Source: Arthonia radiata (lineage: Eukaryota > Ascomycota > Arthoniomycetes > Arthoniales > Arthoniaceae). Taken from it: 64,000 nt of DNA. A program made the position numbers and the translations under genes. The stretch's first letter is position 1. Each line of letters begins with the position of its first letter. Below the pieces are notes generated by a model. It saw nothing but the letters and a program-made list of their open reading frames with translations, searched no databases and had not been told where the DNA came from. The stretch spans positions 247,178-311,177 of the forward strand of contig PSQN01000013.1 in the NCBI GenBank assembly GCA_002989075.1, given 5' to 3'. Of this stretch, positions 36,038-55,867 are shown one piece after another.

Positions 36038-39000
36038 ATGGCCCGCTCTAAAGAGCCAGAACCGCGAAAAGCACCAGAAGCTACAACCACAACCACAACA
36101 ACCTCACACAACGTTACCAAATCCACCATGTCGAACAGAGTCGAGCGACCGACGAAGGGCGACCCCGCCATCAAGAAGAGCTCGCACTTCTCGCGCGCCG
36201 GCCGGAGGACTTGGAAGGCCGTGAAGATCATGATGAATAACAAGAATTGGGGGTTGAAGAAGGAGGAGAACGAGGCGGCGGAGGAGCAAGTTGCTGCGGG
36301 GAACGATGAAGCCAGTGCCCAGATGCCTGAGGAACAGGACGAAGAGATGCAGCTGGATGGTGTGGCTGCTGAGGATGAAGCGATGGCTGATGTCGTCGAC
36401 GTCGGCCATTCGGAGCCAGAGCTGCCAGTGGAAGAACAGCAGGAAGAGCGGGGGTCTGCTGATGCTGAAGCTGAAGCTGAGACTACCGTTGAGGTTGCCG
36501 ACACGGATGCTTCGGAACCGGAGCTACCACAAGAAGCGCAAGAGCAAGAGCAAGAGTCTGTTGACGCTGAGACTACCGCCGAGTCTGCCAACGCGGGCGC
36601 CTCGGAGCCAACGCAGCTCCAGAAAGAACAGCAGGAGGAGCCGGAGTCTGCTGACGTTGACCACACTGCTGAGGTTGCCGTTGCCGTTGCCGATGCCGGT
36701 GCCTCGACGCCAGCACAGCCGTCCCACCGCCGTCTCACAGCTGCTAGACAAGCTCAGTAAGTCTACAGCCTCCATATACCCTTTTGAGAATCGGTTTCAA
36801 CTCCAATTCGCCTGCTTGGGCAAGAAGGAGTAGTTACGACTCCTTAATGTCCCAGTCTTCCTGCTCTTCACCTGAAGCATTGCTAACATTTGTTCATTAG
36901 AAACAACACCACCGCCAACCGTCGTAAATCGTCGCGGGGACTTTCCACGGCACCCACTGAAACCCCCAATGCTCTAGGCAAGCGCAAGCGGGATGGTTTC
37001 GAGCCTGGCGAAGACCAGCTTCAAGCGATTTTCCAAAAAAGAGAAGAGCATGTGAGACTCACAGAGCCCGAGCGCTTGATCTATGACGAGGAGGTGAAGA
37101 GGCGGGAGCTCAAAGCACACAACGAGAAGACGAAGCTGCACCTTGATGACAGCTGGAGTCTCGAAGCACTCGAGGAGCTCGAGACAAACGCAAAGATGCC
37201 TGCTGGATGGCACTACCATTACGATAAGGAAGAATTCCGCGCAATTATGGAGCGCAAGAAGGCCGCCACTGGCGTTGCTGCCAAGGAGAAGACGCCAGCC
37301 GTCGAAGAACAACCGGACAGCGAGGACGAGGCAATCGAAGAAGAGCTTGCCCCGCCGCCCGCAAAACAGAGAAAGAAGAAGTATTTGAACGAGGGTCTCT
37401 ACGTCGGTCACCAAGCTGGCTTTGACCCGAAACTTAAGCCTGGTCTGAATCTAGAGCGGATTAGGCAGCGAGGTGAATCGCCAGAAAACGCCGTACTACC
37501 CATGCCAATGTTTCATGGCAACACTCTCATCGAGCGCGGACGCGACTTCGAATTACCCTACAACGTCTTCGCTCCGCAGCCACCGGGAGCCCCAAAGCCC
37601 GAGCATTGGAAGGTACTGAGGAAGAGTGAGTAATTCCCTTTATCAGATTGCGAACGATTGTCGCCTGACGTCCCTCCCACTATTTGTACTTGCTGCTAAC
37701 ACTCCCCTTAGGCAAGCTAGTCGGCGACGCAAAGCAGATCAGCGAGAAGCTTTCGATGGAACGCTCGCCGTGTATGTGCAGTCCAGACAACGGTTGTGGC
37801 GACGGATGTCTGAACCGTATCATGCATTACGAATGTGACGAAGACCTTTGTAGTGTCGGTGTCTTTCTTTGCAAGAATCGATCATTCGGGGACCTCAGAG
37901 CTCGAAATGAAGGAGGCAGCACCTTCCAAATCGGCGTTGAGGTCGCACAGTACGCTGGCAAGGGTTTCGGAGTTCGAACGTGCCGCGAATTCGATGATGA
38001 CCAGATCATCGTCGAGTATATTGGTGAAATCATCACCGAGGAAGAGTGTCAGCGAAGAATGAATGAGGACTACAAGGATGCCAAGGTACGTTGTTATAAG
38101 CTTACAGAAGACTCAATCCCGGACTAACATCAATAGAACTTTTATCTCATGGAATACGACAAGGGTCTCATCATCGACGCTACCCGTGGGTCCATAGCCC
38201 GCTTTGTCAATCATTCCTGTAATCCCAACTGTGAGATGAGGAAGGCGGTAGTCGAAAAGCAGCCCCGAATGGCTCTCTTTGCGCGCCGCCCCATTGAGAC
38301 CGGGGAGGAACTCACATACGACTACAATTTCCAACCCAATCGCGAGCCTCAACCCTGCCACTGTGGCTCAGACAACTGTCGAGGCGTCATTGGCCCTCGC
38401 CCGACCAAAGATAAAGAGCGCGCTCGCAAGATTGAGCAGGCCAAGCAAGAAGCTGAGAACGTCGTCAAGACTTCTTGTAAGAATGGTAAGGCCACCCAGA
38501 AGGTTGCTGACAAGCTCTCTGCGCACGGGTTCGCCAAAGCTGGGGCTCTGGCCGCGCAGAAGCCTCCCACGAAGCAGCTGAAGATCGATGCGATGCCAGG
38601 GGCGCTGCGACCAACGAGAGCCGCGGAAAAGTTTGCTGACGTTTCTGCTGTTGGGCCTGCTGATACACCCGCTAAGAGACGAACAACCAAAGCTGTTGAG
38701 CAAGGCAACAATATGCCAGCTCCGCAAGTGACCGAGTCGGTCACCACGAAGCGCTCGTCTAAGGCAGGAAAGGCTCCAGAGACACCTGCTGTGCAGCACA
38801 AAGTAGTGCAAACCACGCCGGTATCGGCAGCCATCGAACAGACGGATGAAGCTCCTCTACTGCCGCCTGTACCTGAGTATAAGGCGATGGGTGGTAAAGT
38901 AGGCGAGATCTTCGTTCAAGGGCGTCGCGATCGAGAGGAGAAAGAGAGAGCGGAGGCCATAAAGAAGATGCAGGACGAGGCCAAGAAGGCTCGAGAAGCT

Positions 39001-40806
39001 GCTCTCGCGGGTCAATCGGTGAACGCCCTTGCGGGTTCGGCACAAGAGGTCGGCAGAGGTGGAGAGGCTCGTCCTGCGCGTCAATCAGTGAACACCCTTG
39101 CGCGTTTCACACGAGAGGCCGACAAAGATCAAGAAGCTCGCCCCGCGCAACAATCAGCGGACACCCTCGCGGGATCAGCACAAGAGGTCGACAAAGGTAA
39201 AGAGACTCGCTCTACGCGTCAATCAGTGAACGCTCTTGCAGATTCAGAGCACGAAGTCGACAAAGATGAACAAGTACGTGCTAAGCGTCGCACCGCGAGC
39301 ACGCGTGCAGATTCAAAGCCCAAAGGCGACAAACATAAAGAAGTCCGTCCCAGACGTCACTCAACGAGAACCCTTGCAGGTTCAAAGCACGTGGTTGAAA
39401 AGGATGAAGAAGTTCGTCCCACGCGTCAACCAAAGCGTCGTAAGATAAATCCACCGTCAGCCCCAAAGCCTCCACCTCAGTTTAACTTTCCCAAGTTTCC
39501 TAAGCTCCGACGTCGAGTCGATCACGTTGCGTACCGACGCCCCGGTATGGCACCCAAATACTTCTCGGACGACTCAGACACCGAAGAAGCTGGGACAAAT
39601 CGTACGGCACCAACCGTTGCTGGGGTGACCAACAATGTTGTCACGTCTACCTCCGCCACCGGAGAACCATCCACAGATCGTACAGCACCAGCCGTCGCTG
39701 GGTTGACCAACGACACCGTCGCTCATACCTCCGCCTCCGAAACGCGGTCGTCGTCTGAGCCTCTATCGATGGCGTGCTCAAGCCCCGCCGGCTCTTCAAA
39801 CGAATCAGATACCGCAACAACACCCGATCAGTCACCAGTGTTCAGTGGACAGGCATCATTGCCCAGCGATGCGGAGATGGTCGATAAAGACGTCGCTTCT
39901 GCCTCGAACGTGATCGAGGCTCATCCCAAGGGTCGACATACCTCACCAGCTGCTCGCAGGACGCCCGATCAGTCATCAGCGTTCAGCGATCAGGCGTCAT
40001 TGCCCAGCGACGCGGAGATGGTCGATAAAGACGTCGCTTCTGCCTCGAACGTGATCGAGGCTCATCCCAAGGGTCGACATACCTCACCAGCTGCTTGCAG
40101 GACGCCCGATCGGTCATCAGCGTTCAGCGAACAGGCACCATTGCCCAGCGATGCGGACATGGTTGACGAAGACGTCGCCTCTGCCTCAAATGTGATCGAG
40201 GCTCAATCCGAGGGTCGACATACCTCACTAGCTGCTCACAGGACGCCCGATCGGTCATCGGTGTTCAGCGAACAGGCGTCATCGCCCGGCGCTTCCGAAA
40301 TGGTTGAAAAGCGTGTCGCCTCTGTTCCAGACATGATTGAGGCCCAGTCTGAGCGTCGATCTACCTCTCCAGCTGCTCGCCAGTCTGCGCGCGAAGACAC
40401 CCCCGAGCTGGGTGTTGAGCGCCCCCGGTCTCGGACCCCTCGACCTGCCGCGGAACCCCGATTCCCCCGCGTCATCGAGGCAACACCAGAGCTCGAGGAC
40501 GACACTACTTTTGATCACCAGCCGGACCCCATGGCCATCGACCAACACGAGCCACAGCCTGCACACCAGCAAACCTACGAGACCGCTCCCTACAATGGCA
40601 GCGGCATCTACTATGAATCCGACACAATCCACCCCGGCGAGCTCAACCCGTGGGACAACTGGCGCGCTCCCCGAACGCCCAAGGCGGTCGCGTGGGCGTA
40701 CACGATCTCATCGGGCTTCGATGAGTATATGGCGAAGAAAAATGCGCGTACGGCCAGGGATGGGTATGACGTGTTGATGGATGACGTCGACGATGAAGAA
40801 TACTGA
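36038..40806 (+). CDS. Histone-lysine methyltransferase with AWS, SET and post-SET domains (ASH1/KMT2H type)
   Basis: Four exons (36038-36756, 36901-37625, 37712-38085, 38137-40806) give 1495 residues. The N-terminal 240 residues are acidic and repetitive (EPELP, EAEAETT). After a basic linker comes the AWS domain (about 498-545; CMCSPDNGCGDGCLN, then CSVGVFLCKN). The SET domain (about 550-670) has GKGFGVRT, IIVEYIGE, RFVNHSCNPNC (628-638) and GEELTYDYNF. The post-SET motif is CHCGSDNCRG. All core catalytic motifs are present. The order AWS-SET-post-SET, with no visible WW or SRI region, fits the fungal ASH1 family, which methylates histone H3 at Lys36. SET2 is less likely. The tail of about 800 residues is disordered and holds two families of tandem protein repeats, listed separately. 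Confidence 0.88.
39010..39423 (+). repeat. Six tandem 69-bp units in the SET-protein tail
   Basis: Six units of 23 codons encode degenerate copies of QSVNALAGSAQEVDKGKEARP (residues about 898-1035). The later copies turn strongly basic (KEVRPRR). The period is exact, so slipped pairing or unequal crossing-over probably made it. Confidence 0.85.
39817..40380 (+). repeat. Four tandem 141-bp units in the SET-protein tail
   Basis: Four units of 47 codons start at 39817, 39958, 40099 and 40240. Units 1-3 are very alike at DNA level; unit 4 has diverged. The core protein motif is SLPSDAEMVDKDVASASNVI. The near identity of units 1 and 2 points to recent duplication. Confidence 0.9.
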
Positions 40807-42345
40807 GTGCGTCGCGAGCAGGAAGTGCATCGTGACAGAGATGTGATGGAGAGAAGATGATGAAATATGACAGCAGCTCCAATGTGTGACAAAAACTGTG
40901 ACGGAGCATGATATGGGCCCGCTCCCCCGGCGTTGATGGAAACTGCATGGATAAGGAGCTACGGTCTACTACGGGTAGACTCTTCAGTTTGTACCACTAT
41001 TGGCAGTAGCCGTGTCCTCGATTAGCATAGCGTGGGGTTTGCATTGTAGCGAGTCGTAGATATCAAAATTACATGTTTGACAGCACTTGCGAGCTTACGA
41101 TACTTCCGAAATTCTGCGATATAGGAGGTAATACTCCGGCGCGGCGCGGCGACAAGGCGTTGGAGTTCAACCTTGATTCGCTAACATGTGAGGGCTCTTG
41201 ACGGCTGTGTTGGGAATTGCCTGACAGCAAAAACTTCCATCGCACACCGCAGACCGAGCTGCTCGTGAAGTTGCGTAACTCTAGTGCTGTTATCAAGGTT
41301 TCCTGATGTCAGTCAAGATTCGTTCGCGCTGCGTTTGGATGCTTGTGTGACAAATTGTTTGCATGAGCTCACTCACTGTGCCGCACGGTGTGTACAATCT
41401 AGGTTGTTGCAGAGCTCCTACCTCTACCGCACGCTCGCAATGCGAGAAGCCGACTAGCAATGCGTCGCCTTTCCGGTGAGGGTCGGTGTAGCAGCATGAT
41501 ACGACCAGAGCGAAGTCGTCCGCTGGGCGCAGTTCAACAGCCGACAAGGTTACTTTCCGCCGAAAGCCAGAGCTTGTGTAAGTGGCACTTCGCAAGGCCC
41601 CATGGAAGCGAGGATAGAAGGAAGGTGTGGGGTATGAGCGTATATCGGAGGTGGGAGCTATGCGTGCGCGTCTACCTGTGGTGCTATGAATTGATGCTGT
41701 AGTCCGTTCCCACTGTCTACGACATTTGATGTACTATTAGCTGTCTTAGCGATGCGTTTCCAACAAGACGTGGGCATCGGCAAGCAGCTGCGGATAGCAT
41801 TGACCAAACTATGTGATGACGCTGGTGCGCATTTGAAAGATGGGAGGAAGAAAGCTGTTCACAGATGTAACTTGCGTTGCGATCATGACTGACATCTTGT
41901 GTCGTACTGACCCTCTCTTTAGTTCTCTTGTCAGCACTCATTCCCATCCGACATGTGAGCGTCTGCCCCGCGCTGACATTGTCTTAAGGCGCGATAAGCA
42001 CTGACCAGCGTTTCGGGTCCATCGGAATAGGGCGGAATATGCGACGGCCGTTCGTGTTGGGCTGCCGTCTCATCAGCACTACTGGCATCGTACCATGGTT
42101 CCACGGATGACTGCACGTCATGTAGCTCATTCGAAACACCTGTCAAAGAGCGACGTAGCTTGTTCGCAGTCCCGTGCTTCGATTAATTTGTTTGTTGCTC
42201 GATCGTGTTGTTAATGAACAGATCAGACAGACCCAGCAAGCCCAGAATTCGGCAATAGCAAAACCGGCCGTAGTTATTCAAGTCGCCTTTATTGCAATCG
42301 AAAAAACAAGTGAGGCACGCTCATCAACGAGATAGTTCGTATAAA
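40807..42345. other. Intergenic region with a possible minus-strand gene fragment
   Basis: Most of this span shows nothing clear. An open minus-strand frame at 41293-41735, listed separately, has protein-like composition. A further minus-strand frame at 41931-42146 contains ELHDVQSSVEPWYDASSAD and could be another exon of the same gene. Confidence 0.4.
41293..41735 (-). pseudogene. Unidentified coding-like fragment, possibly part of a decayed gene
   Basis: A stop-to-stop frame of about 147 codons without a clear ATG reads in part FRRKVTLSAVELRPADDF, ALVVSCCYTDPHRKGDALLV and GFSHCERAV. The composition is that of a folded globular domain, unlike the random frames around it. I do not recognise the family. 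Neighbouring minus-strand frames (41717-41947, 41931-42146) may be other exons. The lack of a start and of a clean exon chain suggests a relic or a gene with unusual splicing. Confidence 0.35.
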
Positions 42346-42793
42346 ATGCCACCTTACAAAGGTGCTCCCGACGCCGACACAGCCCGCAAAGAACTAGGCA
42401 ATGGAGACGCCACCGGTGGAGCGCACCATAACAACCTCACCTGGGAGACGCTTGGTTGGACCGTGGGTTTTTCTACACCGATGCGTCATCGATGATAGCA
42501 AACTTGACAGCTGACCCCGGACAGCATGTGTTTCGTGGAGCCGCGAAGAGAGCAGCCCAGAAGAACCAGACAGAGGATAAGACAGAAGATCCGGACAAAG
42601 GCAAGACGTTAATGTGGACGGTGAGTATCCCCGCCCTGATGCAACCCCTCAGTGCGCCATGTACGTGACTGACGTTGCAAAGCTTGCTGCCGCCGCGGGC
42701 TTCAAGCACGGACCCAAGAACAAGAAGGAGAGGGAAGCAGCTGCAGAACAAGAGCAAGCGCAGAAGAACAATAAAGGCGAAGGACAACAATGA
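42346..42793 (+). CDS. Small hydrophilic protein, array member 1
   Basis: Three exons (42346-42462, 42525-42620, 42683-42793), both introns phase 0 with CTGAC branch sites, give 107 residues. The start is MPPYKGAPDADTARKELGNG. Exon 1 ends WETLGWT and exon 2 ends KTLMWT, a similar exon-end motif. Exon 3 starts LAAAAGFKHGPKNKKEREAA and ends in a Lys/Gln/Glu-rich tail. No signal peptide, membrane segment or known domain is seen. The exon chain is convincing because all three parts share composition and the splice signals are standard. Eight more short plus-strand genes with a phase-0 first intron follow up to 55.7 kb. Function unknown. Confidence 0.72.
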
Positions 42794-44153
42794 TCGAAGA
42801 GCGAAGAATGGTGCGAGTAACAACACCCAGTCGGGACGACTCCAAGAATACGCTTTGAGAGGAGCTCAATTGTGTTTCATGTTATCTTACGGCTTGCGCG
42901 AAGAGCGGACCGTGTCTTTGAGGAGTTTTAGCGTGAGCCATGTTGGCGCGCTGATGACAAGTCCTAGAGAGACCTCTAGAGTTTCGAGACGCGTCAAAAT
43001 GGTGCGCAGCGTGTCTAAGCAGACTTTCTGAGCTTAACATAATGGTAAAAAGCTTGGTAAAACCACCAGAGCTTGTTCACGCTCGAGAGTACCCAGCTTT
43101 CCCGTTCGAAAGTCTACTTGCCGTCAGAACACGTGTGCGTCCTGCAATGTGTGGTTTCGCGTCGCTAGCGTTGGAGCGGCACAGCGGCTTCTGCGACTTG
43201 AAGTGAAACACGCGGACATGAATGTGTGGCGCCAAAAAGGAGTGTGGCCATTCGCGGCAGGTCGTTGTCTTCGCTCGCCGTCGGAAGGATGAAGTGTAAA
43301 AGGTTGAACGGGAAAGGTGGACAGGTCGTTAGGATGGCAGATAGGGAAGGTAGATCACACACTACCATATCGGGTAATAACCTCACGCTAAGACGCACCT
43401 GACGCATTGCCCTGTCGACAAGACCATTACCATGCATCAGTACTCAAAGCTAGCCACTCCTTTTCAACTGTTGCACTTTCTCTCTATAATCTCCTGCTCA
43501 TCGTGTGAGAATACAATATTGTTAGGGATAGGAGGCAGCTCGGATTGCGACCAGAAAGCCAACGAGTCGCAGCCAGCTTGCACCACTACGAGTGGCACAT
43601 CCATCCGATACAAACACCGCCTTTGGGTGATTAACTCCTGGAATATTCTTCAATCTTCAGCTTCTACTCCTAAGTGCTTCTGAGCATAAGAATACATTCG
43701 ATGTTTGTAGATACTCACCGTAGAGAGCGAGCACTCCAAGATCCAGAAGGTATTAAGAGCTTAGACCTGCTTCTCTATTCGCTAACTTCCCAATGTAATG
43801 CTGCGTAGAGTCTCTAAAGTTTCATTAGTTGACAAGTTGTTGACACGTCAATACCTCTCCCGAAGTGGGCGTCACGACCTTAATCAGCCGTCCGCTTCAG
43901 GTAAGTATACGGCGCTCGAGGGCAAAGTAGTCGAGCAAACATTCCACGGCGGGCATATTGCCACCTTGGAATAGTCACATTATCAGTCTTCGAGATGGGG
44001 CGGCCAAGCAGACACAGTGTTCTGAAGTTCAAGTAGTGCTTATAAAAACACCACTGCTCAGCTTCTTACGCCGCTCAGCAGAACAACACCAGCAACTTCC
44101 AGCACAACAAACACAACTCACCAAACTCAACCACCATCATCCAAACCTTCAAA
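42794..44153. other. Intergenic region in the small-gene array
   Basis: No gene is supported. A frame from ATG 43432 (83 codons) with a possible phase-2 intron (GTGTGAG donor, GACCAG acceptor) would have coding-like exon 2 composition, but the first exon is unconvincing. A TATAAAAA box at 44041-44048 belongs to the next gene. Confidence 0.4.
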
Positions 44154-44455
44154 ATGGGCCTCCCAAACCAACAGAGCTTCACAAACGGCCACAAGAGCAA
44201 GGACCAGGCTCCCATCACCAACCAAGACCTCTTCACCACCTCCGGCGGACAGTCCGCGGAGAACAGCGGCTTCTCCAACGAGTCTGCCTTCTCGGACGCC
44301 ATGCCAATGGAGAGTACGAAGCACCAGAGCGGGCTCATGCACCCGGTGGTGAGTAGAGCAAGAATTGCCGCGGCTCCTGATGCTGACATTGACACAGAAA
44401 AAGACCGAGGAGGAACTCCACAAGGTCACTCATCTGGGACATCGCAAGTTCTAGG
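44154..44455 (+). CDS. Small hydrophilic protein, array member 2
   Basis: Two exons (44154-44348, 44399-44455) with a phase-0 intron (donor GTGAGT, CTGAC branch, acceptor CACAG) give 83 residues. The start is MGLPNQQSFTNGHKSKDQAP; the body is Ser/Asn/Gln-rich (FTTSGGQSAENSGFSNESAF). The spliced end is KKTEEELHKVTHLGHRKF. A TATAAAAA box lies 106 bp upstream of the ATG, and the leader is CA-rich. Without splicing the frame runs 71 codons further, with less protein-like composition. No domain is recognised. The size and fold-poor nature resemble small stress- or development-induced fungal proteins, but no homology was seen. Confidence 0.72.
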
Positions 44456-44856
44456 CGCTGGGCGCCACCTGGATGACCAGTCGGTTCGTCTGGGATGGCC
44501 GAGACTTGACACGGACGTTCTGAGGAGGGACGCTCTGGGATCAAATTCCCGCAACACTCGTTAGCTGTACAGAAATCAAAGTCACTCTGTGTGAGCCGAG
44601 TTCTGTTATCTGTGAGTTGTAACTTGCTGAGGAGTTTGCCTGTCTGCATGCGTTCAATTTGATCCGTCCCGTGACACGTCTTTAAGGCTTTGGCATTACG
44701 CCTTCTGCAAATAAGCGCTTGTTGGTAGTACGCTGCTTCGCCGACCAAGGTGTTCATCCATAAACACTATTTACGTTTTCAGTAATATCGTAGGGTTTGG
44801 AGAGATACGAGACCGTCGCATAGCTTTGTCTGAGCATACTTACCGTCCTCAATAAG

Positions 44857-45152
44857 TTGCAACGTCGGGAGTTTGGCACATACCTGGTCACAATGAACGC
44901 TCCGTGGACACCAATCACTTGGACGTCCAATCAAACAGCAAGCAAGCCGTCAAGGACAATGACACAAAGATTGCCAAGAGGATGAAAGCTTCGGCTGAGC
45001 AACAACAGGAAAAGCAAGCGGAGCAGATAGCCAAGGAGGCTTCAAAACGCCACAGTCAAATGCGAGCAAGCCTGCCCTTGGCGCCTCTGGGCCCTTGCAA
45101 TGCTCATGACGGAAGAGCACGAAGACGCCTTCAAACTGCTTTTAAAGACTAA
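44857..45152 (+). other. Possible array member with two competing coding-like frames
   Basis: One frame (to TAA 45150-45152) reads KQAVKDNDTKIAKRMKASAE. Another frame, open from 44999, reads FKTPQSNASKPALGASGPLQ and stops at TGA after LQCS. Both look like array proteins. ATG 44893 (MNAPWTPITW) lies in the third frame. I could not fix an exon chain, so it may be a real spliced gene or a decayed one. Confidence 0.3.
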
Positions 45153-47394
45153 GATCCTACACCGCAGTAGCAGAGGTCAGAGCCGGAAGTGACATTTTGG
45201 TCCACGACATGGTAGTCCGTTCGAAGGTGACTGAGGTGGGCTATCAATAGAATTCGATGATCCGTTAGCAATCTTCCTATGCACTGATAAGGCCAGTGTG
45301 ATAGCTACATCCATTTAGAACATCAATATATGTTGGCAAAAATTGAACGACTACTTGATCACGATAGACCGTGCCTTATGCGGTACTGGCGCCGCTTGAA
45401 AAACCTGAGGGGGTCCCGAGAGGGATCTTTGATGGAAGACGCTTACGTTTCGTTCGCCTGGCTTCCGAAACGGTCCTATGTATATCGTTCTGCGGTTGGC
45501 GAGCACTCCGTGGCACCACCGTTTGGTTATGTTTATGACAACGGGCTGCGTGGCGTGTACGGACCTGTTATACAGTAAGTCCGATCGATGATCTTGGGCC
45601 GAGACGCGGGCGTGATAGCACGTCCGGTATGAGTATAACATGTGTGTTTTTGAATCTTTGATCAATGCGTAATGATCATGTAGCGCACCGTTTCATTGCT
45701 CTGCACATGCATACCTGGATTTTGCACTCTTGAGCATGCTACATAGCTCACGGCTGGCAAGGTGGCTTACTGGTGTCTGCATGACGAAAAGCTTGTTCTG
45801 CAGGTATCAAGCTGACCACTGTACGCACTAGCTTGGTCCCGGCACTGAAAGCTGTTGGCAAACTGACCCACCTGCGATAGCGAGTACGATACGCCCCTTG
45901 CTGGAGCGTGTTGAAGATCGATGGGCACGAGACAGCCGTGCCGCATTACGAGCTGGAATCAGTGGAGACGGCATTACGATCCACTCATCGACACGCAAGC
46001 AGCGCTTGAATGAGGCTCAGCAAAGCCGTGTCTCGTGAGCTTTACGATATAAGCAAGGGCAGAGGCAGTCAGGCAGATACGTGACTTTCGAGCTGCGCGG
46101 TCTTGCCGTCCGGCGCCCGTCCAGTGTCGCTGGCTCAGCTCACAGTCAGTTACCACGAACAAACGCCACGACGGCTTGCAGAGCTCATATATACTTCAGC
46201 GACGTCCGTTTCAAGGTGAACAAATTGCGAACCAATTTTCGAACCATCCGTCGAGCCGGGCTGGCCTCGCAAAACGGAGCCTACTCTAAGACGGCCCGCA
46301 GTGCGCGAAAACTTGCCCACCTTGGCGGACACGTTGCCATTGTGCGGAAGCAAGCTTCGAGACAAGCATTCCCTTGCGGGCCGCTGATTAACGCGCTGAG
46401 GATCTGGATAGATGCAGTAAGAACGGACGCGCGTCAACGTGAAGCGATGGATGTTCATTGGTGCGCTGAAAGCTCGATTCCTCAGTATACTGTATGCGGC
46501 TAGCGCTGAAACAGCCAAGAATAGCAACGCTTCCGTTTCCGGCGATTTACGGGCGTATGCATGCGGGTAGCTGCTCCTTCCTTTATCAGATGAAGCTGAC
46601 GAGTGATCCAATGCGTTCTGATCACAGTCTATCTATGTGGTCGTCCCCAAAGCAAGATCGTTTGTGTAAGGTTCTAGGTGAATCTTGTGGATATTGGTTG
46701 GTGTCTATGGATCGAGTTGCTATACGTTCTTGTATACTCGCTTGTGGCTTGATATCGATGATGCGACGCATCGGAAAAGGACGCCTGGCGAGGATCATGA
46801 TCGTTTCAGATCCACCGTCGCACACGATACGCCAGGATTACGCACATAAAATCGAGAACGTGGCAATTCCTCACGCTAGTGCTCCTACTCATGTTAGCGT
46901 GTTTGGCTGTACTTCTAGGCGTCGCGAGGCAAACACGCATCCGTGCCATGTAGGCTTTCAATGACCGTTGTCAGATCTCATCGATGTACCCGTTGACTTG
47001 CGCTGAGCATCCTGCAGGACCTCATCGCCATCAATGCGGCCACGTACTCGTCGCCCCTGCCAGCGCTCGTACTGCGTGCTGAAACCATGGTTCACGAGCC
47101 GTGGTGGACCTTTCATGGGTAAGTGTTGAGCATTGACCGCCGCAACTCATGCTCGGACCAGTCAGAAGCTCCACAACGGCGCCAATGCGGCGCGTTCGAA
47201 GCGTTGCGTTCAACGTGGCCTCCGGAATGTGGTCTGCGAATCGTGTCAACATCGCTCTGTCATAAGACGATCTTTCCTCTTGGCACAGCAGAATCAGCAA
47301 GACCCTCATTTACCACCTGCCTATCTGTATCTTCAAGAAGAACAGGCCAAGACTCCTACGAGATAATTATTACATTCTCTCACACCGAACCAAA
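45153..47394. other. Intergenic region in the small-gene array
   Basis: No firm gene is seen. An 82-codon frame from ATG 45330 (MLAKIERLLDHDRPCL) ends at a donor-like CAGTAAGT and could be a first exon. A weak two-exon candidate is at 46010-46289. A TATATA element lies at about 46188. Confidence 0.35.
46010..46289 (+). other. Weak candidate array member
   Basis: ATG 46010 opens MRLSKA, followed in phase 0 by GTGTCT (a weak donor also used at 51242). The acceptor CTCACAG at 46145 opens a 47-codon frame with coding-like composition (SVTTNKRHDGLQSSYILQRR) ending at TAA 46287-46289. The layout fits the array (six-codon first exon, phase 0), but the donor is weak and the call was guided by the pattern. 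Confidence 0.22.
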
Positions 47395-47769
47395 ATGAGC
47401 AACACAGACTACGGGCGACAGGCGGAGATGCAGAGCAACCCACAAACAGATAAGCCCAAGAAAGAAGACACGAATTGCTTGGAGACAGCTGCCAAAGTAT
47501 GATTGTCCCGTTTTGGAAGTCTGAGAAGTACGCTGACGTTTTGCAAGTGGATGTGCTGTTACTTCGCCTGCAAGTGGGCGTGTGGCGATGACTGCGCTAA
47601 CGACTGTCTCGCGATTGTGTGTTGCGAGAAAGTCTGCTGCTCATGGTGTCCTTTCTGCCCCAACTCGAAGTGCTCTTTCTGGCCTTGCAACTTCTGCGAG
47701 TGCTGCAGAGATGAGGACCACTCAGAGCATCACGACGTAGAGAAACCGTCACCTGCGAGCTTGGATTAG
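47395..47769 (+). CDS. Extremely cysteine-rich small protein, array member 3
   Basis: Two exons (47395-47496, 47548-47769) with a phase-0, 51-nt intron (GTATGA donor, CGCTGACG branch, TTGCAAG acceptor) give 107 residues. The hydrophilic N-terminus MSNTDYGRQAEMQSNPQTD resembles the other array members. Residues 35-90 hold about 17 cysteines, many as CC pairs or CxxC (WMCCYFACKWACGDDCANDC, then VCCEKVCCSWCPFCPNSKC). The end is acidic with His (DHSEHHDVE). There is no signal peptide, so it is probably cytosolic or membrane-attached. Metal binding or palmitoylated membrane attachment are possible readings; neither is shown. The Cys spacing is not that of classical fungal metallothioneins. Confidence 0.75.
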
Positions 47770-49922
47770 CGTATTAAAAGGGTACTTGATGGAGTTTGGA
47801 CATCGAACTGATTAGCGGCGTCGGTTATCTTGAACAACAGCTTGCGTTGTTAAGGTCTCGAAAATGGTGGGATTGCCACTTGGACGTGCCAGAAGTTCCT
47901 TGAGTCTGGAACTTTGAAAGTTCAGAAGTAGACAACATGGTATCATCCGGCGCCGTCGCGGATAGTTTGATCATGAATACAGGTCAACATGGGCTGAGCA
48001 CTTGTCATCTCCATCATCTCTACTTGCAAACTTTTGCTTGTTTACTTTACCCCAAGTTCAAATTGCAACATGAGGAAACCTATTCGGCATTGATGTTCGC
48101 CGCTCACCACTATTAACTTCTGAAAGTAGAGCATCGACTGTCTGCACTTTGGCTTTCGACCGAGCTTGCACTCTCCATTACTTTACGCGGTCTTCGGTCT
48201 TGTGCTGAAAAGCCTTGTGAGTCTATTTTGAAGCTGTGTGATTCAGTGCAAAGCATGTTTGCGCACAACGCCACTTGCGCCCACGCAAGGACTGGACGCT
48301 TGCTGAGAAACTGTCACTCCTAGTAAGTACATACCCTCAGAAACACCTGCTAGCCGCAGTATTCAGTAGCACTCATGGGGCTCGTTGTGCTTTTGGATAA
48401 TCGCCTAGTCCAGCGCTCAATGCACATTAATGGAATCGAGCAGGTTTCCCGTATTCAACGGCGGCGAACACAGTCACCTTTCCCTTTTGCGACGGACCGG
48501 TCAAGGACCTCACAGCTGTTAATCGCTAGCATCTCGTCCCTTCTGCAATCTGATCTTTAAATTTTTGAGCCAAACCCGCTTTCGCAGACATCAAGAAGTG
48601 CGTTGACTGCTAGGGGCTTCCCCCATCGACGTCACAAATTTCGACCTCAGTACTGAGTATGTCCGGCCAACCGAATCTTCGAGAGAAGATGAGGTCAAGA
48701 GGCAGCAGTGATTCAGACGTGTCCAAGGACGACAGTCATTGCTGCTCGAACTAGTGCTTGGTAAGCCAGCACAGTACTCAGATCAACCGTGCTAGGGCGA
48801 TGTTAATCCGAACAACTAGGCTGGTTTGGCCACGTGTTGCGTTACAAAGCAGTCGGACGCTGACGAAGGGTGTTGTGCAAAGCTTTGCATATGCTGTCGC
48901 GCAGAGAGCGTCATTGCAAAAGCCCGGAAGAGAAGAGCAGCCAGAAAAGGATCATGGGACTAGAGTGCTCGACTGTAGGCGGCTAAGATCGGACGCTGCA
49001 CCTGGAGTAAGAAGACGCGCTGGTCAACATTCGTCGCCCAAGTGGAGCTCGGTAGCTTGCCATGGAAGATGGACTTCGTCAAGTCTCCATCGCCGCTGGA
49101 ACCTTGGTGCTATGCTGAGGTAGCTCGACACATGCAGGTCTCTACATCTACTCCTACCAGTATCCTGGAAGGAGTTCAGCACAGAAATCGTGAGCGAAGT
49201 CTCCAATCTTGAGCTGCAGCATCGGTAACCGTTGTCGTTCTCACGTGAGTCTTATGTTGAGCGAATGAGCTACTGTGACAGACTGGACGGTGCAATCCAT
49301 GAAGCGCACAAGGAGGCAACGGCAACACTTTGCCAAGAAATTTGGATCACGCTAGAGTGCAAAGAGGCTAAGTGCGGCAGATGTAATACTGTGTTTCTCA
49401 ATCGAGTAACCATCCATACCTCCACGTGTATCTTCACACCCACTCTTCCCACAATAAAGCACCGCTCAGCTTGTCCCGTAGAGACCAACAACATGAGCTC
49501 TACTACACTTCGCCGCTCGATGATCTTGTGTTGGTCTGACTGCCGACGCATTGTTATGTCAGCACGATTGTCTGACCCAGTCACCCGCGTCCGCTGCCAC
49601 TTTCAAGGGACACCTATCATGTACCGTGTTGGTAGGGAAATCGTTGCATACTTGAAACTTCAAGATGTCCATCGTCCATCGCCCGACAGTCATCAGACAA
49701 CGTGTCTGCATACCTAGCTGTCAAGATCCTGCCAATTGTTGCGATCATGTCCCTTGAGCACGCGTACTGCATTGGCGCCCTCTACTTGATCTAATAAGAA
49801 GATTGTTCCTTTGCTTGTATCATAATTAGCCCAGATTTTCATCATTCCGCTGCTCTTCATACGACCTCGCTCCAAGAAAGTGAACCGGCATTTCTACTTG
49901 GATCGTTCTCATCGCAAGAACG
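47770..49922. other. Intergenic region in the small-gene array
   Basis: A coding-like exon at 48614-48754 is listed separately. A 151-codon frame from ATG 49265 (MSYCDRLDGAIHEAHKEA) has mixed composition and no supporting context. Otherwise nothing is seen. Confidence 0.35.
48614..48754 (+). other. Coding-like last exon of a possible array member
   Basis: After the acceptor GACTGCTAG (48605-48613), a frame of 46 codons reads LPPSTSQISTSVLSMSGQPN, then LREKMRSRGSSDSDVSKDDS, and stops at TAG 48752-48754. Composition matches the array proteins. A first exon could end at EQ/GTTTCC near 48448 (MHINGIEQ), but the donor is weak. Alternatively translation starts at the internal ATG 48659. Confidence 0.3.
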
Positions 49923-50325
49923 ATGTCTTCGGCCGATAAAGCTGCAAATACGTCGGGCCAGCAGACGGCTAAAGAGGCCAAACACCCTGATGTGAGTGCA
50001 CACAAGAGGCTATCAAGCAAGGACGCATCGCAGTGAGCGACGTTTCGGGACTAATCACGACTCACAGCGGAAAACAATTACTGATGCTCTGGGCGATGCA
50101 AGTTTCCGCCTCTCCAGCGCACAACCCCCTCTTACTTACTGTTGCATGCTAGGAGTCGACGCTCCGCAAACTTGGAAGGACATTCAAGGACAATAATTTT
50201 CTTCAAAGGGACGAAGAGCAGACCCAAGTCGACGATTGGCGACCCGGCGGCAAAAGGTTAGAGAGTATGTCGTACGCCGCAGATGTTATCGCATTGTATG
50301 TGTGCATACAGACTACGAACTTTGA
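49923..50325 (+). CDS. Small hydrophilic protein, array member 4
   Basis: Proposed exons are 49923-49991, 50068-50097, 50153-50264 and 50312-50325, giving 74 residues. Exon 1 codes for MSSADKAANTSGQQTAKEAK and HPD, ending at a strong donor GTGAGT in phase 0. Exon 2 codes for RKTITDALGD. The second intron would use a GC donor (GCAAGT) as the RNA polymerase gene does, and leads to ESTLRKLGRTFKDNN, then RDEEQTQVDDWRPGGKR. The third intron (GTATGT to TACAG) closes the protein at ENYEL. Exons 1-3 are coding-like; the end could instead run on in the open frame to 50470. No known domain. Confidence 0.5.
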
Positions 50326-50959
50326 AAAGGTGCCGCGGACCTTTCGAGCTAGAGCATCCGTCCGTAATGTTCTCAGGACACAGCTCAGTGGCATTGTCAC
50401 TCGCTCGGGGGCGTTAGGCTCACCACAAAAGAGGTATGATGCTATTCGGATTGCCCTTTCCAGCCAGTAATGCATAGCTTATGAGGTCTTGCTCGCTTGT
50501 TTGCTGTTCGATATCACCTGCTACTTGAGCTGTGAGTGATGCAATTTCCGCTCGCGTCTCACCGCAGATGCGTAGAACTTGTGCAAGTCCAGTCATCTAC
50601 TGCTGGTCTCATACCGGTGCGTAAGTGCGGTCTAGCCGTCTCGAGACAGTCAATGGATCTGCGGCCCTCCTCCCATGCAAAATGCATGTGTGAAAGAACC
50701 CGCACTGTTAAAACTTCAAATAAGCGTGCTAACCCACATCCGATTCCCTCAACTCACGGTTTCTGGCCTTCGGCTCTCACCCTGTTATACACTACCACGC
50801 TGACGTTATATAACCGTCCCATAACATGACAGCTACGCGCCGCAACATCAACGTCACTCCGCAATAATCCAGCAACGTGTCCTCGACAGCCTCGTTACTT
50901 CCACAACATCGTCAGACCATTTGTAAGCTCTCAAGTGCCACCGTCCTTTTCCAAGGTCA
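50326..50959. other. Intergenic region in the small-gene array
   Basis: No gene is supported. A TATATAA element lies at about 50807, some 150 bp before the next candidate start. Confidence 0.4.
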
Positions 50960-51384
50960 ATGAAAGCTGGGAAATGTCGCACTTCATCAAACGTGGAAAC
51001 AACGACCATCGCATCTGCGCTGTCGATACGACCAAAGCTGCAATCGCGGAGCATCCGCCGAGAAGTGACTGGCGCACCTGGTTAGGCAACATGAAAAGAG
51101 AGCATCTCACGGGCGCGAACGAGACGTCAGCGTAGGTCTCGACAGCACACGCTTCAACGGCCACGTCATCTGCCGCTTCGACGGCTCACGAGGTGAAGTC
51201 TGACTATGGTGCTAAAGGAAGTGAGCAGGCGGACCTCAAGGGTGTCTGATGCATCAAGACTGCCATCTTGAGTTTACTTGTCTTCCAACATGTACCAGAA
51301 GCCTACCAGGCGGCCTCCGTCGTACAAAAATTCAAAGAAGTCTTTCAAAAGTTGCTCCATGGCGATGCATCACCTAGCCCGTGA
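50960..51384 (+). CDS. Small hydrophilic protein, array member 5
   Basis: Proposed exons are 50960-50992, 51136-51241 and 51299-51384, giving 74 residues. Exon 1 is MKAGKCRTSSN with a weak phase-0 donor (GTGGAA). Exons 2 and 3 are well supported by composition: SAASTAHEVKSDYGAKGSEQ joins ADLK to EAYQAASVVQKFKEVFQKLL through a 57-nt phase-1 intron ending TACCAG. Exon 2 can also be reached in the same frame from ATG 50974 only across an in-frame TAG (51133), so the first exon is the weak point. The C-terminal part is predicted to be helical. No domain is recognised. Confidence 0.48.
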
Positions 51385-51925
51385 CTTAGCCCCCCCAAAG
51401 CACCTCCACAAACTCCACGGTCAGACCCGTCACCGTTCAACGTGGTCCCTTATCTTCTCAGACAACCACATACACGCCAGTGTGTCTAACCGCGTCATGC
51501 TCACAAGCACAAACAGCTGACTCACGACACAGGCCATCTGTCCTCATGCATCAGCCGCTCGCCAATCGCTCCCTTGCGGTTTCACATTGAGAAACACCGC
51601 CCGGGGCCAAGGGGCGGCCCGTGGCTCGCGTATTATGACACTTACTCACGGTATAGGAATGAGCGATGACGTTGAGTGCCATTGGAGCCATTGGGACGTT
51701 TGATACCTGACGTGGTTGAGACGTCACTTTCCACGTGTTGTCCAACACTCGATCATGCAGAATCGGCGACCGACAGAGTGTGTTCTCCACGTGTTCACGA
51801 CTGCTCAATCTGGTCGTATATATGGCCCACCGCGGCCACCGCCTGGATACATCCACAATGAGACCAGAGTTCCACACCAGCGTAACACATCGAGCGTCAC
51901 CCCCGCACCGCGAAACTAACGCACC
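51385..51925. promoter_or_regulatory. Upstream region of array member 6 with TATA box
   Basis: TATATATG at 51817-51824 lies about 109 bp before ATG 51926, nearly the same distance as the TATAAAAA box of array member 2 (113 bp). The rest of the span shows no gene. Confidence 0.45.
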
Positions 51926-52235
51926 ATGCCTTGGAATCCCAAAGAAGCGGTGCAAAAGGTACGCAGCTTCTCTGGCGTGCGCGTTGGCCCAGGCGCCCGT
52001 TGGCAACCGGCGGCTCTCCCTGCTTTCGTCGATGCTGTGTAGAACAGCTCGGTTGACGCCATTGCAGATCACGAACCTCGGGAGGGGTCACACCAAAGAT
52101 ACCACCAGCACAACCGCCAAGTCCAGCGGCGGGGATAAAAGCGTTGCTTTGTCGAGACCGGATGGCAGCAAGCAGACAATAAAACAACGCGAGAAGGAGG
52201 AGGACAAACATGCAGGGACCTGGATGAGAAGTTGA
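51926..52235 (+). CDS. Small hydrophilic protein, array member 6
   Basis: Exon 1 (51926-51958) codes for MPWNPKEAVQK. A 109-nt phase-0 intron (donor AAG/GTACGC, acceptor ATTGCAG) leads to exon 2 (52068-52235), for 66 residues in all. Exon 2 reads ITNLGRGHTKDTTSTTAKSS, then GGDKSVALSRPDGSKQTIKQ, and ends in REKEEDKHAGTWMRS. The protein is strongly basic and acidic with few hydrophobic residues, so probably disordered. First exon length, phase and composition match members 7 to 9. Function unknown. Confidence 0.72.
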
Positions 52236-53037
52236 TTTGAGCGTCGGTGCGTGCTGTTGAGGAGGTGTGGAGAGTGTGACGGGTGGTAGGTAGCGGCGTG
52301 GATACTCCGCTCTACTCCTGGAGTTAGGTGAGCAGATATCGTGTGCGATTGATGAATGACGTCCATCAGCAAATCTGAGTTCGCTGCCATCGCGAGGGGA
52401 GGCGCTTTGCTAGGGCTTCGTTAGTGACTGCGCTCCCTAGTAAGTGGTCCGGCGGTCCTCGCAGTCAGCGAAGTAGACTTGCCAGTCGCTTAGCGGTTTT
52501 GCAGCTTACCTGGCTCATGGTGAATCTAATGGTGTAGCTATTTGTCATCATCGAACCGACTTGCGAGGACGTGCGCAGCACCATCAACAAGCACATACAC
52601 CGTCGTCTAACGAGTTCACTTTGCGTGTATGAGTCTTTCCCTTGCTCGACCATCCAGGAGTTGCCCAAACACCACTGTCGCAACATGACCCGCTTTTGGA
52701 ACACAGTGGCTCCTCGCAACACAGACTACGTGTTCTCAAATCAACAACGCTCGAGGAACCATACCGCATCAGTACCCTAAGCGCGACAGAAGGCCAAGGA
52801 GGGCTCTTGAACTGCATCTCAAACGAGTTAGAAGTGCACACATCTCAAATATACCCATTAGCGTCCCGCGCGACGTGTACTTACAAACACTAGCGACGTC
52901 ACACAACGCGGCTGTCTTCTGATGGATTCTTGATACCCTGTAAGATCGACTGCGCAGTTACTTTGAACTGGACAAGAAAAACATACCTCAACACCTGGAG
53001 CACTCACCACCAAATCACAGACAGAGCGCAAAGCACA
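52236..53037. other. Intergenic region in the small-gene array
   Basis: ATG 52686 opens MTRFWNT, close to MGRLWN of array member 8, and is followed by GTGGCT in phase 0. The exon reached from CGACAG (KAKEGS, stop) is too short to be convincing. It may be a decayed array member. No other gene is seen. Confidence 0.35.
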
Positions 53038-53393
53038 ATGTCCCTCTTACACAAAATCACACACGTACCTCGCCCCTCCCGAAAACTTCCCGTCCAAACG
53101 CGAACTAACACATCCAGCCCTTTGACCGCCATAACAAACCCACCACCACCAAGTCAACAAACACAACCACCTCCAAGACCGCCGCAGACAACAATCTCCA
53201 CGACGCGCCGACCGCAGACTCCGACAAAGCCCTGCCGCCTGTGCCTAAAAAGAAGCATCTAGAGGCGCACCCAAAAACGCTGCTCGAGGCGATGGGCATG
53301 CGGAAGAAGCGCTTGGGCTCGCCGGACTCGGTTTCGAGTACTACGGGGGTGTACGACCCGCCGGACGAGCGCGAGCGGGTGCCTGAGAGTTGA
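53038..53393 (+). CDS. Small hydrophilic protein, array member 7
   Basis: Exon 1 (53038-53064) codes for nine residues, MSLLHKITH. A 53-nt phase-0 intron (donor GTACCT, branch ACTAAC, acceptor CATCCAG) leads to exon 2 (53118-53393), for 100 residues in all. Exon 2 starts PFDRHNKPTTTKSTNTTTSK, continues with ADSDKALPPVPKKKHLEAHP and MGMRKKRLGSPDSVSSTTGV, and ends ERVPES. Unspliced, the first ATG gives an unrelated Pro/Thr-rich frame of 74 codons ending at 53262; the spliced frame is longer and more protein-like. PPVPKKKH could be an SH3-type proline motif (inference). No known domain. Confidence 0.72.
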
Positions 53394-54127
53394 GGTGAGG
53401 GTGCGATGGGTTGAGGGAGGGAAGGTGCGTGGCGTTTGATGGGTTGTGGGATGAGTTTGGATGTGGGAGGAGGTAGGGTGGCGAAGGGCAGTTGAGGTAC
53501 GCTTAACCGTGAGTTGACGAGATGACAAGCGATCGTTTTCTTGCTGACTGCCTTACGGCCAGGAGGGTTTCGAATGCCATTTGGTCGGGAGAACGGTAAT
53601 CGAGGTGATTTAAGTTGAGTATTCTGCTGAAGTGTGTAGTGGAAAACGTCCGCCCGCGCATAGCGCACTCAACCTCTTCTTGCGCCTGCATTGAGACCTT
53701 TCTTGCGACTTGCCGGACCTCACGGTCTTGGCTCTTGTTGATGACTGATCGACTTCCAGTTTTGATCATCTCACGACTGTTCGCAATCGCATTCATGATG
53801 GCCCGTAAGCACCGCGCGCCAGCTGTCCCTCGCAGTCTGCTCACCCCTCGGGCCCCTCGCCTCGACTCGCTCGTATAGTCGACACTTGGGGCCAAGGGCC
53901 GGCAACACCTCGTCGTATGGCGTATGACGCCAGATGTCAATGACTGAGGCCACAAGCTATTACGTGTTCTCGAAGGCCTTTACTATGTCTTGCTTTTCCT
54001 TACACGATGTACCAATCTCTTGTTGGAGCACAGCACCATTCATCAATTACTTCCTATCAACCTTGGAGGAAGCCGTCTGCGCCACTAGAACACAACATAC
54101 CTACATCAACCGCGCAAATCGCACGCC
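53394..54127. other. Intergenic region in the small-gene array
   Basis: No gene is supported; long minus-strand frames across 53105-53955 are shadows or random. Confidence 0.4.
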
Positions 54128-54592
54128 ATGGGAAGGCTCTGGAATGTAAGTGCCGCCCAGCGAGATCCTGCGCTTGTTGGAATGTTGTGAGAGGTCCGAT
54201 TCCTGACCCGGATGTAGTTCGTCAAACCCAAGAAAGACCACACGGCCACTGGCGCCAATAAGGCCCCTGAGATGACAACCACAGCGGCTTTCACAGGCTC
54301 GACTACAGGGCCTGTACGCCGGTCGCTGGACAAGGTCATACCTTCGCACCTGCTTAGCGACAAGCACCAGAACCAGCAGAGAGAGCGCGCCTCGTCAATG
54401 GCGTCCAACAAGACGGTGAGCAGCACCAAGGGTGGGTATGCGTCGTCAACGGCGTCCAACGAGACGGCGAGCAGCACCAAGGGTGTGTATGCGCGGTCAA
54501 GGCCGCCGTCCAACGAGACGGTGAGCAGCACCAAGGGTGTGTATGCGGCGTCGCGTAAGCACGAGCGTGTGCGAGAGGAGGAGGAACAATAG
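54128..54592 (+). CDS. Small hydrophilic repeat protein, array member 8
   Basis: Exon 1 (54128-54145) codes for only six residues, MGRLWN. A 72-nt phase-0 intron (donor GTAAGT, CTGAC branch, acceptor GATGTAG) leads to exon 2 (54218-54592), for 130 residues in all. Exon 2 starts FVKPKKDHTATGANKAPEMT, then RRSLDKVIPSHLLSDKHQNQ. Three tandem copies of a motif like SNETVSSTKGVYA follow (about residues 75-120), and the end is RKHERVREEEEQ. The splice signals are all canonical. The repeats suggest a linear motif used several times, for instance a phosphorylation or docking site (inference). No known family. Confidence 0.75.
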
Positions 54593-55370
54593 ATCGATGA
54601 GGCATTGCTGGCGCTGCATGAGACACATCCGGGATCTTTAGCGGTGCTGTTACGGTTAACACGATTTTTGAAATGCGCAACGGCGAACGTGCCTTTTGTT
54701 TCGAGCATTGCGCTGTCTCTTCATCATTGTGGCGCCATCACTCAGGCAAAAGGACTTTAGTGCCCCAGCCTCACCGCGTGGCATTCTCTGCTTGTACCGT
54801 TTGGTCATGTTGAAGGCTAAGGATTGCTGTCACTCGATTGATAAAAGGCGGTGGGTTTCTCAAACAGCTCCGGTATGCTTGGAAGTCCTCCAGACAGCCA
54901 TTAGCGCGGTCCGCGTCGTCAGCCAGGAAACCAGGACATGTCATCAAGGACAATCAGCGCCGTCCACCTGCAGACGCCATGTGTTCGTCCGTCACGCACG
55001 GATGACACGAAGCGCGTGCCGCTTTCTTCATTAGGCGGCTTTGCTCCACGTGCGACCCCTTGGATCGTTCATTTTGACCCATGGATCTGTGACCATGGAA
55101 GGGTTCGGCTTGGTGGGCCTCCCCATCTGAAACGAGTCGTCCCAGACGCATAGTGTTGAACGGCGGGTCCATCGCAAGCTTACCCGCGCTTCTCGCCTGT
55201 CAGCGTGAACTCCATCGTATGAATCTCAGATGGCGTGACGTGTCGTCTTGTCGTTAACGTGCTCATTGCTTCTCATATGCTACCTCCCCGTTCAGACAAC
55301 CTCAACAAACAGTGCCCCCATCATTTTTCGAGCATCCTCTTCCTCCTTCACACAGCCCAACAAACTCATC
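54593..55370. other. Intergenic region in the small-gene array
   Basis: No gene is supported. The 3' end of this span is a CA/CT-rich leader for array member 9. Confidence 0.4.
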
Positions 55371-55664
55371 ATGAACGCCGCCAAAGATGCAGTCGAAAAG
55401 GTTCCTACTCCTCATTCTGTACACATCAAACCCAGTGGTCGTACGCTGACCTAGCAGAAACTCCACCTCAAGTCAGATAAACACAGGTCTTCGACTACCG
55501 ACAGCACCACGACTGCTGCGGTCAAGGATGAAGAGTCCACCAAGGAAGCCGAGCCGCGCGAGAGCATGGATTCGGACTCGAGCGCTCGGGGCATCTTCAA
55601 TGGGAAGCGGGGCTGGGGTTTCCGTTCTAGGCGCTCGCACCCACCTGACAATGAGACGAAGTGA
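55371..55664 (+). CDS. Small hydrophilic protein, array member 9
   Basis: Exon 1 (55371-55400) codes for MNAAKDAVEK. A 54-nt phase-0 intron (donor AAG/GTTCCT, branch GCTGAC, acceptor CTAG) leads to exon 2 (55455-55664), for 79 residues in all. Exon 2 reads QKLHLKSDKHRSSTTDSTTT, then AAVKDEESTKEAEPRESMDS, and ends with a basic aromatic stretch, KRGWGFRSRRSHPP. The first exon resembles MPWNPKEAVQK of member 6 (both end in AVxK). The donor GTTCCT is weak but the branch site and frame are good. RSM22 lies convergently 204 bp away. Function unknown. Confidence 0.68.
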
Positions 55665-55867
55665 GGTGTCGTGTCGTTAGCGGTGCTGTCCAGACAATGA
55701 CTGAGCGTGTCCGGATTCGGCCGCGCGTTGACACTCAATCGTGATGTCTCGCATCGTCGAAGGCAAGGCGCTGGCAGCCGGCCTGATGTGAGATCTAGTA
55801 TAATCCGCTGATAGCTATACGAGCCCTTATCATACAGTCAGAACGCACCCTATCCTTCCCCCTCAAG

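Follow-up and report, generated by a model that had tools for sequence, protein, structure and literature searches.

What lies in a 15-kb interval of the genome of Arthonia radiata, a lichen fungus of the Arthoniales, between a SET-domain gene and a gene like the mitochondrial ribosome methylase RSM22, and do the small spliced genes found there share an origin? The interval belongs to the window, by which the whole analysed stretch of 64,000 nucleotides is meant, at positions 247178-311177 of a 1.83-Mb contig in a genome of 33.5 Mb in 16 contigs. The A. radiata genome has been described as 33.5 Mb in 17 scaffolds, together with a transcriptome and an annotation of 6,931 genes (PMC5887037). A sequence-only reading had placed nine genes here, spliced by eye, which are called g1 to g9 in the order of their starts (42346, 44154, 47395, 49923, 50960, 51926, 53038, 54128, and 55371). 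The present analysis supports a real 13-kb cluster of small genes, for which no relatives were found and which comprises at least four and probably seven members. That these are co-oriented genes of which g6–g9 arose from one gene by tandem duplication, with products that are perhaps protectants, is a reading to which we give about even confidence.

Gene models of the cluster

An ab initio gene finder was built with terms for the start, codon-phase third-order Markov composition, splice site, branch site, and intron length. It was self-trained on both strands of 172 kb (the window and the next 108 kb) without the joins of the sequence-only reading; the initial examples of splice sites and start codons were typed from general knowledge after the region had been read, and the final tables derive from the finder's own predictions. 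The training set settled at 55 genes; their 107 introns had a median length of 65 bp and the usual donor GTRWGT and acceptor YAG. The yardstick for splice sites was the 5th percentile of 104 training introns, at 2.2 for donors and 1.6 for acceptors. Array-free scores were obtained by dropping the array from the last parameter estimate only, the gene set itself having come from iterations that included the array.

With the joins unseen, the finder predicted g1, g2, g7, and g8 within 40900-55867, at the same starts as those read by eye. Under an order-3 Markov null, models of at least 60 aa with a score of at least 2 occurred at a rate of 0.0067 (150 simulations) or 0.005 (200 simulations) per 15-kb strand, and none reached a score of 5. 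Because of the finder scores and this near-zero null rate, g1, g2, g7, and g8 are considered well supported and g9 probable, and the coding potential and exon plan of the former four are shown by computation. The models, all on the plus strand, are as follows.

g1: exons 42346-42462, 42525-42620, and 42683-42793, plus strand; 107 aa; finder score 21.0 (17.5 array-free)
g2: exons 44154-44348 and 44398-44454, plus strand; 83 aa; finder score 12.5 (12.2 array-free)
g3, likely: exons 47395-47496 and 47548-47769, plus strand; 107 aa with 18 Cys and a polar start; total score -14.1
g4, doubtful: exons 49923-49991, 50153-50264, and 50312-50325, plus strand; 64 aa; score -9.4 with the best join found
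g5, doubtful: 50974-51135, plus strand; an intronless open reading frame of 53 aa that begins 14 bp inside the g5 read by eye; score -1.5
g6, likely: exons 51926-51958 and 52068-52235, plus strand; 66 aa; score -2.3
g7: exons 53038-53064 and 53118-53393, plus strand; 100 aa; finder score 5.6 (5.7 array-free)
g8: exons 54128-54145 and 54218-54592, plus strand; 130 aa; finder score 19.6 (16.2 array-free)
g9, probable: exons 55371-55400 and 55458-55664, plus strand; 78 aa; score 2.0 with the strand scored alone (2.1 array-free)

The gene g9 was missing from the main finder list and emerged at 2.0 when its strand was scored alone with the final model. Weak splice sites had been conceded in advance for the fourth, fifth, and ninth members. 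The g9 donor GTTCCT scores 0.7, the g4 acceptor is weak and follows a first intron of 161 bp, and the start of g5 is unsupported, as no plus-strand model from 50960 was obtained at any of three gene penalties. The g7 donor (1.8) and the acceptors of g8 (1.1) and g3 (0.7) also lie below the respective 5th percentiles.

The one Cys-rich member that had been pointed out is g3. The main finder run gave only its first 35 codons (score 0.4), and exon 2 scored -12.3; the low coding score is attributed to the unusual nature of this exon, in which 17 of 73 residues are Cys (binomial P 3e-19). No open 73-codon window in the six frames of the 172 kb is richer in Cys than one in the g3 region, which has 18 Cys against 13 in the next best. 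Such richness would hardly arise unless the protein were under selection, and g3 was therefore counted as likely. In g6, both splice sites are good, but the intron is 109 bp long and the coding part short, and the relaxed finder favored an unspliced frame of 38 codons at its start; it was counted as likely because its first exon matches that of g9. Therefore, of the nine plus-strand genes claimed by eye, four were predicted at the same starts, g9 was recovered more weakly, and g3 and g6 are likely, whereas g4 and g5 are unsupported. An array of nine uniform members was rejected, as g4 and g5 fail scoring. Minus-strand genes in place of the array were also rejected: with that strand scored alone, the interval gave nothing better than a model of 39 residues and score 0.5, and none was listed after array-free training.

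Several features were observed within and between these models. Exons 1 and 2 of g1 both end in TLxWT directly before the intron, which suggests an internal exon duplication. Three in-frame 51-bp repeats, 76–90% alike, lie within g8 at 54389-54544 and represent an intragenic expansion. Between g6 and g7, a short open reading frame at 52685-52780 starts with MTRFWN, like the g8 first exon MGRLWN, and could be a relic first exon. A possible second Cys-rich gene or relic lies at 48659-48962, where a 31-codon ATG frame ends with HCCSN and a TAG that precedes an apparent donor; about 60 bp past the TAG comes a further open frame, in which several pairs of Cys and a basic tail are encoded.

Kinship, gene plan, and upstream element of g6–g9

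Protein similarity was assessed by shuffling for the 45 pairs formed by g1–g9 and one fragment. Five pairs had P ≤0.05, with about two expected: g1/g4 (0.03), g2/g7 (0.03), g7/g8 (0.01), g7/g9 (0.04), and g8/g9 (0 of 300). The g8/g9 Smith-Waterman score of 74 was reached in none of 4000 whole shuffles and in none of 1000 local-composition shuffles either way, with a reversed control of 35, and composition-adjusted BLASTP restricted to the pair gave E values of 1.4e-4 and 6.5e-5. For g7/g8, a C-terminal stretch scored 52, which was reached in 31 of 4000 whole shuffles; the local shuffles gave 0.02–0.03, and the BLASTP E value was 3-4e-4. In both pairs, the similarity sits in exon 2 and exceeds composition-adjusted chance, with g7/g8 the more marginal case. 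Under local shuffles, the other 13 of the 15 pairs among g1, g2, and g6–g9 were at chance. The uncorrected g1/g4 and g2/g7 matches, which would bring g1–g5 into the kinship, fail correction for 45 pairs, and a single array of nine is therefore not supported. Thus, the old, fast-diverging tandem expansion that had been proposed finds modest support within g6–g9 (from g8/g9, g7/g8, and g6/g9) but no corrected kinship for g1–g5.

The link between g6 and g9 is found in the first exons. The resemblance of the short starts MPWNPKEAVQK and MNAAKDAVEK, already seen by eye, holds up to the phase-0 junction: read back from it, KEAVQK and KDAVEK agree in 14 of 18 bases (P 4e-4; 0.011 over 28 pairs), the match having been noticed before testing. 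For g6 and g7, an in-register match around the stops (P 0.06) points the same way. The four genes g6–g9 also have a common plan, with a first exon of 6–11 codons, a phase-0 intron, and a single second exon on the plus strand; the second exons are rich in Lys, Ser, and Thr and predicted to be disordered, and the genes stand 1.1–1.2 kb apart.

The first intron is in phase 0 in all seven acceptable models (g1–g3 and g6–g9), so that the uniform phase claimed for every member stands for these models, although phase 0 is also the commonest first-intron phase locally. Among the 47 first introns of genes scoring at least 5 in the 172 kb, 25 are in phase 0, 17 in phase 2, and 5 in phase 1, with the four array genes included; without those four genes, phase 0 accounts for 21 of 43. 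At that rate, the chance of seven in seven is about 0.007, not counting that some joins were chosen by frame. For the phase-0 first introns of the five finder models (g1, g2, g7, g8, and g9), the corresponding figure is about 0.03. All five lie on the plus strand, and the strands of the genes neighboring the cluster are mixed. The clustering itself is a firmer statistic, though also post hoc: four of the five spliced predictions of at most 130 aa and a score of at least 5 in the 172 kb fall within the 15 kb of the cluster.

A short element, GGCCAAGG, was identified upstream of three consecutive genes.

GGCCAAGG element: 51605-51612, plus strand, 321 bp upstream of g6
GGCCAAGG element: 52792-52799, plus strand, 246 bp upstream of g7
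GGCCAAGG element: 53890-53897, plus strand, 238 bp upstream of g8

The pattern GG.?CCAAGG[AG]?G, drawn up post hoc, has three sites in the 172 kb, all upstream of g6, g7, and g8 and in the same orientation. Genome-wide, a degenerate pattern derived from the three array sites has 11 places (reversed control, 2), of which those three match by construction; of the eight places outside the array, seven are in predicted coding exons and one (L048) is in predicted noncoding DNA. The plain GGCCAAGG has 11 sites in the 172 kb, six of them noncoding. CCAAGG or its complement occurs in six of the nine 400-bp array upstreams and in 3 of 54 others, the top result among the tested 6- and 7-mers (uncorrected P 9e-5). 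When the 350-bp upstream regions were compared, the only match was one of 16 bp between g6 and g8, GGGGCCAAGGG(G/C)CGGC, with a P value of 0.045 for the best of 36 pairs. These results are suggestive of a promoter element shared by g6–g8.

Protein properties, relatives, and flanking genes

The products of the cluster are hydrophilic, as had been stated for most of them. The grand average of hydropathy (GRAVY) is -1.34 for g1, -0.99 for g2, -1.35 for g6, -1.08 for g7, -1.02 for g8, and -1.46 for g9, and -0.63 for g3. The 53 other predicted proteins have a median of -0.52, a tenth percentile of -0.98, and a minimum of -1.12, so that g1, g6, and g9 fall under the minimum of the others and g2, g7, and g8 in their lowest tenth. 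In a charge–hydropathy comparison, all seven acceptable models lie on the disordered side, g3 barely so (0.03). No 19-residue segment exceeds a hydropathy of 0.03 in g1, g2, and g6–g9; the maximum is 1.39 in g3, the first 34 residues of which are polar. No N-terminal signal peptide was recognized in g1–g3 and g6–g9, judging from the polar N-termini by eye and from hydropathy, with no dedicated predictor. These properties suggest that g1, g2, and g6–g9 encode intracellular disordered proteins.

Small size, very high hydrophilicity, predicted disorder, and the lack of a known domain appear to be shared with the hydrophilins, disordered stress proteins similar to late embryogenesis abundant (LEA) proteins, among them yeast STF2, SIP18, and HSP12, fungal CON-6 and CON-10, and Alternaria SIH. 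One source requires of hydrophilins a Gly content over 6% together with high hydrophilicity (PMC3306391); another takes a hydrophilicity index above 1 as a GRAVY below -1 and contains a table of uncharacterized hydrophilin candidates of Alternaria, some of them of 51–100 aa (PMC6730492). The glycine content is 11.2% in g1, 8.4% in g2, 9.1% in g6, 6.2% in g8, 5.1% in g9, 3.0% in g7, and 1.9% in g3. Consequently, g1, g6, and g8 pass on both counts, g2 narrowly misses on hydrophilicity, and g3 fails both. Because g7 and g9 fall short in glycine and g2 is just short in hydrophilicity, the cluster was not filed under the hydrophilins; its proteins differ from them also in having no Pfam match above the cut-off. 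The protein of g3 recalls fungal Cys-rich proteins and metallothioneins in its 18 Cys among 107 residues and in its CC, CxxC, and CxxxC spacing, but it contains Trp, Phe, and Tyr and has no Pfam match. Classical metallothioneins are not known to contain these three residues.

Pfam yielded no family at its curated cut-off for g1, g2, g3, and g6–g9, CON-6, CON-10 (KGG), and HSP9/12 being among the families included; three matches to unrelated families stayed below the cut-off, with E values of 0.06–0.25. Exon-by-exon searches of the own genome with the same seven genes gave no convincing second copy. Six weak genome matches, of g7 (L005 and L006), g8 (L036 and L037), and g9 (L033 and L034), were judged to be chance. 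The strongest, L033 (E 0.002), has four stops, and the open, coiled-coil-like frame at this place is a different one; long open frames contain L034 and L036, and a Ser/Pro/Thr-rich frame of 122 residues contains L037. Five of the proteins were compared with 5.8 billion proteins: g2 had no usable words in common with these, and an alignment of g6–g9 yielded 3502 candidates, none with E ≤1. In the same database, the best named match of RSM22 was that of Coniocarpon cinnabarinum with 66% identity, and two ENA proteins had 65 and 69%. The database therefore holds relatives, at a distance where fast-evolving disordered proteins could be missed. Coniocarpon belongs to the Arthoniaceae in the Arthoniomycetes, and the Dothideomycete guess of the sequence-only reading was mistaken. 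Among the literature matches listed, no title or start of an abstract describes this cluster.

Two genes flank the cluster and may serve as synteny anchors.

SET-domain gene: 36038-40806, plus strand
RSM22 mitochondrial ribosome methylase-like gene: 58414-55868, minus strand

No RNA families or transfer RNAs were found in the window. On its minus strand, the gene at 9178-13398 encodes a domain of RNA-dependent RNA polymerases (PF05183), a hint that the fungus uses RNA silencing. On contig G000:C3, a mostly AT-rich block of approximately 22–38% GC begins near 423 kb and reaches 511 kb or beyond, interrupted by a stretch of 50% GC and by a run of N; it adjoins an arm of 53% GC and is perhaps centromeric sequence or sequence affected by repeat-induced point mutation.

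Origin and possible role of the cluster

Clusters of lineage-specific small-protein genes are known in ascomycetes and are likewise co-oriented, rapidly diverging, and without relatives found; the well-known ones encode secreted effectors. The cluster studied here is a fairly ordinary lineage-specific cluster of this known kind, different in that its genes have no signal-peptide-like starts and in the distinctive plan of a short first exon with a phase-0 intron. For g6–g9, the most likely course of events would be that one small ancestral gene was tandemly duplicated and that rapid divergence of the copies left little more than the gene plan and a few traces of similarity. The retained plan would consist of an ATG exon of 6–11 codons, a phase-0 intron, and a disordered, Lys/Ser/Thr-rich exon 2, with three of the four genes keeping the putative GGCCAAGG element 238–321 bp upstream. 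From this combination we infer common descent, the membership of g6, and shared regulation. The tandem origin of g6–g9 is the better reading than its rivals, though not proven.

A number of results weigh against that origin, and several of them favor the notion that the genes are unrelated orphans, which arose de novo or drifted separately in a permissive intergenic stretch. The likeness among g6–g9 would then reflect a common richness in Lys, Ser, and Thr, and g8/g9 would be the only true duplicates, if there are any. Most pairwise protein matches do vanish under local-composition shuffles, including the whole-protein matches of g6–g7, g6–g8, g6–g9, and g7–g9, and g1, g2, and g3 are unlike one another and the rest after correction. 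Default phmmer detected no match among g6–g9; genome searches with g7, g8, and g9 missed each other yet listed chance-like places at E values of 0.002–4.4. Unrelated hydrophilic pieces (n = 38) scored up to 48 with g7 and 51 with g8, near the 52 of g7/g8. At the DNA level, tandem units were rejected: among 15 pairs of 1.1-kb units, only u6/u7, the units of g6 and g7, just topped its 60 shuffles (39 against 38), the match lying in register around both stops in G-rich DNA (P 0.06). In 21 pairs of 3' ends, g8/g9 scored 28 (P 0.007), but g1/g8 also reached P 0.028, and the g8 3' end scored 32 against the best of 55 unrelated genes. The upstream element was recognized post hoc, its P value fails correction for all 6- and 7-mers, and three copies of the plain GGCCAAGG lie in the noncoding DNA of the array, where 1.0 would be expected. 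Moreover, g3, g4, g5, and g6 are below the coding threshold, a number of splice sites are weak, g7 and g9 fall short of the hydrophilin glycine content, and five models would share one orientation by chance about once in 16 cases. Nevertheless, separate origins leave unexplained that g8/g9 survives both kinds of shuffle and composition-adjusted BLASTP, that g7/g8 has a BLASTP E value of about 3e-4, that the g6/g9 first-exon match stops exactly at the phase-0 junction, and that one element recurs upstream of three consecutive genes. Unrelated orphans are thus a serious alternative, but a rather less probable one than common descent.

The remaining explanations appear much weaker. Exon shuffling, in which a common promoter and first-exon unit was set before unrelated second exons, has in its favor that each of the seven acceptable models opens with a short first exon and a phase-0 intron. 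This part of the earlier proposal was not borne out, as the first exons are dissimilar except for g6/g9, the upstream DNA shares only the 16-bp g6/g8 match, and the similarity of g8/g9 and g7/g8 is located in exon 2; we regard it as very improbable. Equally hard to credit is an artefact of splicing by eye with no genes at all: g4 and g5 do look like one, but the self-trained finder picked four models without the joins at a near-zero null rate. Secreted effectors of symbiosis, directed toward the algal partner, would suit genes that are small, fast-evolving, clustered, and lineage-restricted, with one Cys-rich member, a combination typical of small secreted proteins in fungi (PMC7105643). The starts are by eye not of the hydrophobic, signal-peptide-like kind, and the low maximal hydropathy of g1, g2, and g6–g9 agrees with this, which makes effectors improbable, if only slightly less so than the two preceding explanations; secretion by an unconventional route could still occur.

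As for function, the hydrophilic products of the cluster may, as a conjecture, act inside the cell as low-specificity, hydrophilin-like disordered protectants during drying and rewetting. Such a role would relax the constraint on sequence while conserving composition, and it would fit a lichen that dries and rewets. The most far-reaching version of this reading is a tandem family of tiny disordered proteins specific to lichen fungi, united not by sequence but by gene plan, composition, and a promoter element of its own, serving as protectants in drying and rewetting and evolving too fast for copies to be recognizable in relatives whose RSM22 is 65–69% identical; taken as a whole, it is rather unlikely.

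If the genes are expressed, the cluster would give one class of lichen-forming fungi a concrete group of small-protein genes that can be tested. It may also illustrate the fading of sequence similarity beyond detection in a tandem family that keeps its composition, exon plan, and spacing and is thereby missed by homology-based annotation. The practical value would lie mainly in genome annotation and in candidates for desiccation tolerance.

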